Source: Tetradesmus obliquus
Lineage: Eukaryota; Chlorophyta; Chlorophyceae; Sphaeropleales; Scenedesmaceae
Assembly: GCA_030272155.1 (NCBI GenBank)
Contig: CP126201.1
Span: forward strand, 4,388,501-4,452,500
Direction: 5' to 3'
DNA: 64,000 nt
Notes under the pieces: model-generated
Databases searched by the model: none
What the model was told of the DNA's origin: nothing
The model's input: the letters and a program-made list of their open reading frames with translations, nothing else
Program-made: the position numbers and the translations under genes
Shown: positions 1,196 through 61,446 of the stretch, in pieces
How the letters are laid out: each line of letters begins with the position of its first letter
Numbering within the stretch: the stretch's first letter is position 1

Positions 1196-1562
1196 CACGC
1201 CACAGCCGCCGCAGCACACGCCGCGCGGTACTGAGACATGACACACATTCAGTACACGCGGGCCTTGGGCGGTATGGTCGTGGGACTTTTAGCCGACTTT
1301 TAGCACTTTTACCACAGGTCCGGAGGGTAGTGCAATTATGATCCATCTCCCATGCACAAAAGCACACACCACAGCCGCCGCGGTACACGCTGAGCCGCAC
1401 TGAGACGAGAGACATGTCTCACATTCAGTACATGCGGGCCTTGGGCGGGATGTGCTCCATCTCGCATGCACACGCCACAGCCGCCGCAGCACACGCCGCG
1501 CGGTACATGACACACATTTAGTACACGCGAGCCTTGGGCGGGATGTGCTCCATCTCGCTGTC
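1196..1562 (-). repeat. Three tandem copies of the SDH1 stop-codon region
   Basis: The real SDH1 3' end (about 1470-1562) is preceded on the plus strand, that is followed in the transcript, by two diverged copies at about 1367-1468 and 1196-1283. Each copy carries the GC-rich 3' flank (GCCACAGCCGCCGC on the plus strand) and the last codons. The middle copy encodes [11 protein letters not shown] plus TGA, the outer one IPPKARVY plus TGA, and the functional one ends in TAA. The duplication therefore spans coding sequence, stop and 3' flank. The outer copies would lie in the 3' UTR if the transcript runs that far. Confidence 0.8.
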
Positions 1563-61000: not shown

Positions 61001-61446
61001 TAACCGCTTGCCTGCCTGCCTGCCTGCCTGCCTGCCTTGCTGCTCTTCCTGCAGGGCGCTGACTCACTTCAAGGAGCAGCGCGCCAGCTGGAGCGAGTTT
61101 TGCGCCACCAACATGAACCCACGGCTGTCTAATTGCCTGCCTGCCTGCCTGTCTGCCTGCCTGGATGCTGTGTTTCTACCTCCTGCAGGGCGCTGACGCA
61201 CTTCAAGGAGCAGCGTCACAGCTTGACCGAGCTGTCCGCCACCAACATGAACACAGCTTTGTCTCTCCTGCTGACCGCCTGCCTGCCTGCCTGCCTTTCT
61301 GCCGCCCCTGCAGGGCGCTGACTCACTTCAAGGAGCAGCGTGCCAGCTGGACTGAGCTGTCCGCCACCAACATGAACACGGAGCTAAGCTGGAGCAGAAG
61401 CAGCGCAGACTACGTGGCGCTGTACAACAGCATCGCCATGCCTTAG
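52043..61446 (+). CDS. Soluble starch synthase, GT5 family, SSIII/SSIV-type
   Basis: Transfers glucose from ADP-glucose to the non-reducing end of alpha-1,4-glucan in the chloroplast. Fourteen exons: 52043-52162, 52620-52901, 53258-53434, 54166-54342, 54879-55036, 55303-55499, 56128-56216, 56623-56745, 57516-57641, 58261-58361, 58773-58877, 59246-59359, 59905-60045, 61314-61446. They sum to 2043 nt, or 680 aa, with phases closing. Residues 1-40 look like a transit peptide ([20 protein letters not shown]). A short coiled coil follows ([20 protein letters not shown]), then Ala/Ser linker. The GT5 domain begins at [14 protein letters not shown]. The ADP-glucose motif is KVGGLGD, split by intron 3; KVGGL rather than KTGGL is the SSIII/IV/V hallmark. 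Then [102 protein letters not shown] and KTGGLADTV. At least nine introns carry exon echoes. Confidence 0.93.
53520..54115 (+). repeat. Donor-side and acceptor-side echoes in starch synthase intron 3
   Basis: Intron 3 shows both classes. Two copies of the exon 3 end ([16 protein letters not shown] plus GT) are at about 53521-53575 and 53641-53698. Two copies of the exon 4 start (AG acceptor plus [14 protein letters not shown]) are at about 53910-53970 and 54034-54095. The order is exon 3, donor echoes, middle, acceptor echoes, exon 4. Confidence 0.92.
54343..54878 (+). repeat. Echoes of exon 4 end and exon 5 start in starch synthase intron 4, with telomere-like words
   Basis: A copy of the exon 4 end (QDQIEGLG... 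GKSWDGEI) is at about 54400-54479. A copy of the exon 5 start ([10 protein letters not shown]... IGGV) with its CAG acceptor is at about 54764-54830. Between them, 54480-54565 contains several GGGTTTAGGG/GGTTTCAGGG words resembling degenerate TTTAGGG telomere repeats. Confidence 0.8.
55188..55240 (+). repeat. Acceptor-side echo of starch synthase exon 6
   Basis: A copy of the exon 6 start (AG|G then [17 protein letters not shown]) lies 115 bp before the real exon at 55303 and diverges after HILH into HTPFH. Confidence 0.9.
55560..55925 (+). repeat. Donor-side echoes of starch synthase exon 6
   Basis: Three successive copies of the exon 6 end ([20 protein letters not shown] plus FT) at about 55563-55632, 55710-55783 and 55864-55925. 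They decay with distance: the second ends ACAAGTGC without a clean AG|GT and the third is heavily substituted. Confidence 0.88.
56470..56580 (+). repeat. CTG tract and acceptor-side echo of starch synthase exon 8
   Basis: A CTG tract (about 56478-56511) ends in CTGCAG followed by a copy of exon 8 ([19 protein letters not shown]). The real exon starts at 56623 behind a second, shorter CTG tract. Confidence 0.9.
57260..57460 (+). repeat. Acceptor-side echoes of starch synthase exon 9
   Basis: Two copies of the exon 9 start at about 57275-57320 ([15 protein letters not shown]) and 57399-57447 ([15 protein letters not shown]). The real exon starts at 57516 ([15 protein letters not shown]). Each copy has a CAG acceptor. 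Confidence 0.9.
57690..57860 (+). repeat. Donor-side echoes of starch synthase exon 9
   Basis: Two copies of the exon 9 end ([18 protein letters not shown] plus GTGAGCGG) at about 57715-57747 and 57788-57852. The real end is 57641. Confidence 0.85.
58030..58257 (+). repeat. Acceptor-side echoes of starch synthase exon 10 with CTG tracts
   Basis: Two copies of the exon 10 start ([17 protein letters not shown]) at about 58041-58092 and 58145-58197. A CTG tract precedes the second copy and another precedes the real exon at 58261. Confidence 0.9.
58380..58772 (+). repeat. Triplet tracts and acceptor-side echoes of starch synthase exon 11
   Basis: A CAG tract (58381-58396) lies shortly after the exon 10 donor. 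Two copies of the exon 11 start ([15 protein letters not shown]) at about 58578-58628 and 58671-58722 are each followed by a (CTG)n tract leading into the next acceptor. The real exon starts at 58773. Both triplet polarities thus occur in one intron, each at its own end. Confidence 0.9.
59097..59160 (+). repeat. Acceptor-side echo of starch synthase exon 12
   Basis: A copy of [13 protein letters not shown], here reading [14 protein letters not shown], lies about 145 bp before the real exon at 59246. Confidence 0.85.
59382..59640 (+). repeat. CAG/CAA tracts and donor-side echoes of starch synthase exon 12
   Basis: CAG/CAA tracts at about 59381-59438 and further CAG/CGG at 59530-59640 enclose two copies of the exon 12 end. 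The first ([14 protein letters not shown] plus GTGAGGACGG) is at about 59447-59497. The second (about 59566-59604) is degraded, with GTTGAGG in place of the donor. Confidence 0.88.
60160..60775 (+). repeat. Donor-side echoes of starch synthase exon 13
   Basis: Four copies of the exon 13 end ([18 protein letters not shown] plus GT; real end 60045) at about 60165-60222, 60412-60478, 60557-60617 and 60729-60771. Most keep CAG|GT. The last has CAGGGGC and no GT. Confidence 0.9.
60800..61313 (+). repeat. Acceptor-side echoes of starch synthase exon 14 with (TGCC)n tracts
   Basis: Copies of the exon 14 start ([20 protein letters not shown]) at about 60800-60840 (partial), 60917-60975, 61056-61120 and 61192-61252 precede the real exon at 61314. 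The acceptor tracts here are (CTGC)n/(TGCC)n tetranucleotides rather than CTG, for example 61006-61036, 61136-61162 and 61276-61296. Confidence 0.92.

Follow-up and report, generated by a model that had tools for sequence, protein, structure and literature searches.

Copies of exon edges in introns of Tetradesmus obliquus and their possible relation to short tandem duplication

Introns of Tetradesmus obliquus contain imperfect direct copies of the adjacent exon edge, here called echoes. The phenomenon is real, occurs in most of the sampled contigs, and is non-random in side, orientation, spacing and placement. Copies of an exon's 3' end follow its donor, and copies of an exon's 5' end precede its acceptor. 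In the window (the whole 64-kb stretch of DNA analysed), three genes supported by known proteins have 52 internal exon edges; the scan of these edges gave 46 copies, every one of them direct and on the predicted side. The most fitting interpretation is that echoes represent, on a large scale, a known type of event, tandem duplication across an intron-exon boundary.

Intron lengthening, new exons and decoy splice sites are usually inferred from single events. The T. obliquus genome appears to contain numerous copies captured at various stages, at donor, acceptor and stop-codon edges, with a unit size and divergence that can be measured. The duplication route of intron growth thus becomes testable by comparison of strains.

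Sequences and gene models

The window is part of contig C11 of an assembly of 104.66 Mb in 17 contigs. The sample consisted of the window and 20 stretches of 10 kb (L003 to L022) at round-number positions on contigs C1 to C8, 264 kb in total; L001 and L002 entered only the search for spacer sources (271 kb). Gene models came from a purpose-written splice-aware gene finder (GHMM), which took seven CK2 alpha exons as its seed and then trained itself on these 264 kb; it superseded an earlier run that gave too many tiny exons. The gene finder mostly recovers SDH1, CK2 and starch synthase. Some echoes were miscalled as short exons, and one SDH1 exon was truncated (start 4361, too short; acceptor edge about 4405). 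The strict tests were therefore limited to exons of at least 100 nt or to the three protein-supported genes (starch synthase, CK2 alpha and SDH1).

Starch synthase, joined from window exons without any echo, matches a T. obliquus record across all 546 aa (listed as 100%, the letters showing one V/I difference). For CK2 alpha, assembled likewise, the listed identity to T. obliquus record P0123 is 100%. The SDH1 pieces match solved succinate dehydrogenases (E 4e-223), and the SDH1 exons therefore rest on similarity. These three identities, proposed in the earlier note from sequence alone, are supported, but its LysM protease is not fully so: for this gene Pfam returned only Peptidase_C1, and not LysM.

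Low-complexity exon edges were removed from the edge scans (loose, strict, strict without L016 and L022, nearest-pair and stop/start-edge). The minimum exon length was 45 nt in the loose side scan, 100 nt in the strict scan (also run at 130), 75 nt for nearest pairs and 60 nt for stop and start edges. The divergence, codon-position, likeness-profile and conversion analyses omit L016, part of L022 and spacings above 300. The intron-part homology test omits L016 and spacings below 80 or above 200, and the 10-mer counts, masked-array test and tolerance expectation omit L005, L016 and L019. SDH1 exon ends and starts were redone for the final counts, and the intron counts for CK2 and starch synthase were carried over from an earlier tabulation.

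Exon-edge copies in the window

Self-comparison of the window gave 40 local direct-repeat arrays, and the one local inverted match is a self-palindrome. This confirms the claim of the earlier note that introns hold one to nine imperfect copies of exon edges, and adds that the spacing is nearly constant, at about 123 nt. In CK2 alpha, four of the seven introns examined have echoes (3, 4, 9 and 2 copies):

8010..8536, + strand: intron 3, true donor edge (exon end 8044) and three donor-edge echoes
8864..9379, + strand: intron 4, true donor edge (exon end 8921) and four donor-edge echoes, period about 115
9917..11283, + strand: intron 5, nine acceptor-edge echoes (9966 to 11077) upstream of the true exon at 11221
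11379..11708, + strand: intron 6, true donor edge (11440) and two donor-edge echoes

In intron 5, six of the nine echoes are followed about 60 nt on by a donor-like motif, GTGAA(T/C).

Starch synthase has echoes in 11 of its 12 tabulated introns; a further intron, at about 52172-52595, has no echo. The earlier note had reported both edge types within one intron of this gene, in the expected order, and donor-edge copies followed by acceptor-edge copies are in fact seen in four. The features are:

53382..53699, + strand: donor edge 53434 and two echoes, with diverged spacer homology still visible
53906..54215, + strand: acceptor edge 54166 and two upstream echoes, in the same intron as donor edge 53434
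54261..54496, + strand: donor edge 54342 and one echo
54743..54935, + strand: acceptor edge 54879 and one echo
55185..55354, + strand: acceptor-edge echo, exon part identical at 52/52 nt, intron side mostly unrelated
55425..55896, + strand: donor edge 55499 and two echoes
56487..56684, + strand: acceptor edge 56623 and one echo
57389..57857, + strand: exon 57516-57641 with an acceptor echo and donor echoes
58012..58311, + strand: acceptor edge 58261 and two echoes
58534..58820, + strand: acceptor edge 58773 and two echoes, period 89-100
59101..59294, + strand: acceptor edge 59246 and one echo
59317..59639, + strand: donor edge 59359 and two echoes, the first identical at 55/55 nt
59964..61385, + strand: last intron, donor edge 60046 and four donor echoes, then acceptor echoes (three at the threshold used) and the true acceptor 61314
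61400..61781, + strand: stop-codon end, with a copy 339 nt downstream in the 3' flank

In SDH1, echoes are present in four of ten introns. The features of this gene, and those of the other four genes in which the earlier note had described echoes, are:

1195..1558, - strand: SDH1, stop-codon end (exon 1518-1709) and two downstream copies
4343..4536, - strand: SDH1, acceptor edge about 4405 and one upstream copy
4877..5065, - strand: SDH1, acceptor edge (exon start 4917) and one upstream copy, with a CAG tract between
5406..5573, - strand: SDH1, acceptor edge of exon 5234-5451 and one upstream copy
16346..16672, + strand: papain-family protease (Pfam: Peptidase_C1), donor edge 16396 with echoes, period 67-87
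31366..31536, - strand: SBP-domain gene, weak case, a 38-nt repeat of period 133 with a five-base overlap with predicted exon 31532-31701
34993..38128, - strand: helicase-associated (HA) domain gene, five arrays on predicted exon edges (that at 37832 by two bases only)
42401..49921, - strand: coiled-coil gene region (a name read from the sequence), seven arrays on predicted exon edges (42401, 43896, 44702, 45312, 46879, 48353, 49592)

Side, orientation and spread

The strict scan covered GHMM internal exons of at least 100 nt with 400-nt flanks in all 264 kb. An echo was found on the predicted side at 66 of 344 edges, divided equally between donors (33/172, in the 400 nt after) and acceptors (33/172, in the 400 nt before). 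Wrong-side matches occurred at 7 of the 344, all of them in L016 and L022, and the reverse complement gave one match in 688 scans. For comparison, the middles of the 93 exons of at least 150 nt gave a match in 9 of 186 scans. The window alone has 31 of 103 edges with a predicted-side echo and none on the wrong side; the 20 random stretches have 35 of 241, with 7 wrong. When L016 and L022 are left out, the count is 53 predicted and 0 wrong, of 312 edges.

An initial, looser scan, which took exons of 45 nt or more and flanks of 1 kb, returned 140/581 on the predicted side, 64/581 on the wrong side and 3 inverted; it was noisy and was replaced by the strict scan. Most of its wrong-side matches are presumably echoes miscalled as short exons.

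The placement rule set out in the earlier note therefore holds, both in the supported genes and across the sample, and copies on the wrong side or in the wrong orientation, which it had named as grounds for rejecting the idea if equally common, are rare. Its expectation that echoes would be found beyond the seven genes is also borne out, by the 20 stretches on C1 to C8. The rate varies among the 18 random loci with testable edges, from 0/20 (L006) and 0/24 (L012) to 7/20 (L009).

The two loci with wrong-side matches in the strict scan, L022 2726-5040 and L016 7337-9953, are arrays of whole exons or of protein repeats.

Number and spacing of the arrays

Self-blastn of the 264 kb gave 103 local direct-repeat arrays, on nine contigs (strict-test echoes are on seven), and six inverted matches within 1 kb. 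The median period is 123 nt (middle half 111-139.5) and the smallest offset is 80; a blastn self-comparison cannot judge offsets below about 50 (diagonal rule). Tandem Repeats Finder reported one unit in the 40-99 nt range in the window, of 67 nt. Counts of 10-mers shared by an exon and its flank, within 250 nt, have the same gap, with 1354 at offsets of 100-159, against 9 at 40-79 and 66 at 160-199. Far from genes, 10-mer repeats at 80-159 nt are about ten times sparser.

In a first sorting, predicted exon edges accounted for 83 of the 103 arrays. Another 8 fell within introns, and the remaining 12 were intergenic, some of these sharing bases with a terminal exon. Whole-unit tandem arrays exist, for example at 8864-9379 in CK2 alpha and at L004 2627-2959, the latter at 100%. 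Among the 103, no array at an edge is a fresh exact doubling (two copies, repeat about equal to the period, at least 90% alike). The sole fresh exact doubling is at L005 7107-8313, with a period of 597 and no predicted exon.

Anatomy and divergence of the copies

The earlier note had stated that the copied unit usually includes the splice dinucleotide. When echoes are located by their exon part alone, the GT is intact at 53 of 68 donor echoes and the AG at 66 of 73 acceptor echoes, in agreement with this. In ungapped profiles, identity is 0.79-1.00 across 30 nt of exon and 0.87-0.97 at the GT/AG, and falls to about 0.5 by base 7 past the donor and by base 6-7 before the acceptor; the exon-part identity is inflated by the exon-based search, while the GT/AG identity and the drop are not. 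The copied exon part has a median length of 62 nt and is usually only part of the exon. In 22 of 87 nearest exon-echo pairs the match extends over 12 nt of intron or less, and in others over more than 100 nt. Some exon parts are identical (52/52, 43/43) beside an unrelated spacer. In two-copy echoes the likeness is mostly confined to the exon part and splice motif and does not cover the whole unit, which corrects the earlier note.

Between echoes, the median divergence is 0.067 in the exon part and 0.216 in the intron part, against 0.385 for random introns, and indels occur at 0.8 and 5.6 per 100 nt, respectively; the contrast is partly one of ascertainment, since echoes are found through the exon part. 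Intron-part homology exceeds the 95th percentile of the controls in 27 of 39 long-run pairs and in 6 of 30 short-run pairs (5% expected). Substitutions and indels differ from copy to copy, as do the spacers, so that the copies have diverged individually, as had been claimed.

Exon and echo differ at codon positions 1, 2 and 3 by 0.079, 0.081 and 0.147, and 43 of 52 exon-echo indels are not multiples of three, in a set that retains two long poor alignments (L014 6115 and L009 1879) that are possibly not echoes. The frame-breaking indels show that echoes are largely not coding, and the codon-position differences are the pattern of a freely evolving copy compared with a constrained exon. Echo-specific changes, however, number 48, 38 and 75 at the three positions, a third-position lean that exceeds free evolution. 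Possible reasons are third positions rich in GC, the purging of changes by exchange with the exon, and re-copying.

Tests for conversion gave only weak direct signs. The clustering of differences gives p = 0.19 (KS test for conversion tracts), and the nearest echo is the more alike in 11 of 16 arrays (p = 0.10). A pair of tandem paralogs in L021 (1151-2150 and 8805-9789) has exon blocks that are 89-92% alike, with 134 identical nt in a row at one exon edge, whereas neither the intervening intron nor the sequence past that edge can be aligned. The pair suggests homogenisation limited to exons, and shows that fast intron turnover and exon-limited likeness occur here independently of echoes.

Coding edges other than splice sites

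The earlier note had centred the process on splice junctions, and this is not supported in that form. Copies on the non-coding side were found at 4 of 13 stop-codon edges (one in the repeat locus L016), a rate similar to that of splice edges; those at SDH1, starch synthase and L009 were confirmed by direct reading. The seven start edges of the same scan had no such copy. What the sites with echoes have in common seems to be the coding edge and not strictly the splice site; the 3' UTRs may contain unannotated introns. Moreover, the side rule is expected from purifying selection alone, because, of the two copies made by a duplication that spans an edge, only the outer one can go on serving as exon.

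The concentration at coding edges is a different matter. Randomly placed, tolerated duplications of 123 nt would straddle a coding edge in 25% of cases. Of the arrays with a period of 80-160, 77 of 84 overlap a predicted exon, and full-unit arrays at least 85% identical are at coding edges in 12 of 15 cases; the contrast is somewhat overstated, in that the observed arrays were scored against all predicted exons and the expectation used exons of at least 60 nt. One of the 84 is intergenic, where tolerance predicts 21%. Selection by itself therefore does not account for this concentration. Masking of exons and echoes leaves 30 arrays, of which 28 still accompany an exon or echo or lie no more than 25 nt from one, one is elsewhere in an intron and one is intergenic; judging from coordinates, several of the 28 units look wholly non-coding.

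Origin of the echoes

We hypothesise that tandem duplication of about 120 nt recurs in genes, and that exchange between the copies keeps the exon part alike while the introns turn over; we give this about an even chance of being correct. The duplications would be short, each unit measuring about 100-150 nt, and would recur in the gene-bearing part of the genome. Those that straddle a coding edge, whether splice junction or stop codon, would be tolerated if the outer copy stays exon, leaving the spare in the intron or 3' flank; the sidedness is observed, and selection would be its cause. Later exchange between copies would multiply the units into arrays, a step suggested by R-spacer-R-spacer-R structures, one of them at 100% identity. 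The intron parts would turn over fast, and the exon part and splice motif would be re-copied from, or exchanged with, the functional edge, presumably by gene conversion, so that older echoes would look like bare exon edges with splice sites. The net effect would be longer introns.

In favour of duplication we count the unit size, the direct orientation and correct side, the stop-codon arrays, the whole-unit arrays, the residual intron homology, the non-coding nature of the echoes and the contrast in L021. Against it, simple duplication predicts the same degree of likeness in the exon and intron parts, and conversion or some other factor is needed. The weak direct signs of conversion, the third-position lean, the concentration at edges and the lack of fresh exact doublings at edges also count against it. 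Given the exon/intron contrast in L021, duplication with conversion is the most economical reading, even though the direct signs of conversion are weak.

The rival that survives best, although unlikely, is that copying is limited to the exon from the start. A process linked to transcription or splicing (for example RNA-templated or R-loop-associated repair) would insert a copy of the edge that ends just past the splice motif, next to a spacer that was never related. The fall in likeness within about 6-7 nt of the junction, the nearest echoes matching 12 nt of intron or less, the identical exon parts beside unrelated spacers, and the scarcity both of 10-mer repeats far from genes and of intergenic arrays are what it would produce. 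It fits poorly with stop-codon edges that behave like splice edges, with the spacer homology left in some cases (for example at 53434), and with whole-unit arrays of the same period. In a more specific and rather improbable form, such repair, possibly RNA-templated, would copy edges and splice motif into the adjacent intron in outward steps of about 120 nt, and would be a standing source of intron growth and cassette exons.

Neutral short tandem duplication with purifying selection only is similarly improbable and is already disfavoured. It makes the concentration at edges and the likeness of exon parts effects of detection: echoes are found via the exon part, and decay on one side would occur only at constrained positions. 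It accounts for side and orientation, and exon middles do have a few nearby copies. It does not account for the excess of arrays at edges, including the full-unit ones, for the masked test, or for the divergence contrast between exon and intron parts among echo-echo pairs.

It is more doubtful still that selection keeps echoes as splice-competent decoys or alternative exons, with exon part and splice motif conserved for function. The retention of GT and AG, the third-position bias of echo-specific changes and a CK2 protein record with three in-frame echo-derived segments are in its favour. However, most indels break the frame, the presence of as many as nine copies in one intron is difficult to account for, and the CK2 record may be a product of gene prediction. 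Third positions also differ less between echoes (0.122) than does the intron part, which coding constraint alone does not give.

An assembly artefact is very improbable: tandem repeats are a classic assembly error and one assembly was examined, but the copies differ individually by substitutions and indels, carry different spacers, and are found on several contigs. Recursive splicing, with AG/GT at each donor echo, was also considered, and does not fit acceptor echoes with the same period.

Comparison with known systems

Intron gain by duplication of AGGT-containing exon segments (Hellsten 2011, as described in parts of PMC4974935 and PMC3443670) shares with the echoes a local direct duplication inside a gene, splice dinucleotides in the unit and a spare copy that is spliced out. 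There, according to the same excerpts, a unit internal to an exon turns into a new intron, whereas here units straddle the edge and add to a longer intron. A new intron of unit length is not what is seen, as introns with echoes are 264-1486 nt long and the units that straddle the edge about 123 nt. Closer is the potato RdRp gene, where, in the excerpted account, a duplication likewise crosses an intron-exon boundary (PMC4974935). As presented there, that is a single case in which the copy made a new intron and exon sequence; here the duplicate is left in the intron, at donors and acceptors alike, at 66 of 344 strict edges in 264 kb and with up to nine repeats.

A DNA-level route to small direct duplications, and a candidate for the primary event, is fill-in by Pol alpha-primase and CST at DNA breaks (PMC8355091, in part). 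The breaks were induced, in mouse and human cells, with overhangs of 43-50 nt, and the excerpts of that paper make no tie to exon edges or to a unit of about 123 nt. If break repair were the source, adjacent copies should be equally alike along the unit when fresh; this is so in whole-unit arrays, whereas two-copy cases are mostly alike in the exon part only.

Introners share with the echoes an expansion of algal introns, but form families across unrelated genes, as described in the parts of PMC9860276 available, whereas echoes match their own neighbouring exon. Neither introners nor transposable elements fit: the far matches of the window are one strong match (gene duplication aside) and two weak ones, and for 11 spacers and flanks the matches elsewhere in the 271 kb were all of low complexity or short and partial. 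Tandem duplication of (mutually exclusive) exons is not compatible with the short copied exon part and the frame-breaking indels, except in L016 and L022, which were set apart. In a literature search covering mainly open-access texts, as listings and excerpts, no description of bidirectional exon-edge copies was recognised.

Intron length and coding potential

In the three supported genes, introns with echoes have a median length of 536 nt (n = 19), against 244 nt (n = 10) for those without (Mann-Whitney p = 1.5e-4). This association supports the intron lengthening raised in the earlier note, and suggests that the growth of introns owes something to short tandem duplications at exon edges. In the tabulation excerpted from PMC5966456, mean intron length is 462 nt in T. 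obliquus and 230-302 nt in four other green algae.

For the birth of new exons, also proposed there, we have one hint. T. obliquus protein record P0122 (OEZ86_013874), which has an identical CK2 locus name, includes three additional segments, in frame and derived from echoes (window 9966-11283). Its GPDL motif is encoded only by echo 10215 among the ten exon-edge copies compared. These segments could equally be a product of gene prediction and not evidence of a transcript, because the gene finder used here likewise took echoes for exons. Annotators should bear in mind that exon edges which are almost identical and only 120 nt apart can mislead short-read mapping as well as gene prediction.

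Other repeats in the sample

The tandemly duplicated genes at 18542-20302 and 20665-22453 (76.6% alike) were considered as a before-and-after comparison, and the sole intron that aligns between them has no echo. In the protease gene, a whole short exon with both splice motifs (16850-16926) has an 87% copy 3.6 kb downstream, at 20490-20566, between other genes. A 28-base minisatellite of 8 copies lies at 35187-35412 of the window, inside an echo array. Outside the window, L020 contains a tandem duplication that is 99.98% identical (1-4459 and 5542-10000, offset about 5.5 kb), and L019 a satellite-like array (1-4576 and 7940-10000) with repeat offsets of about 300 bases.
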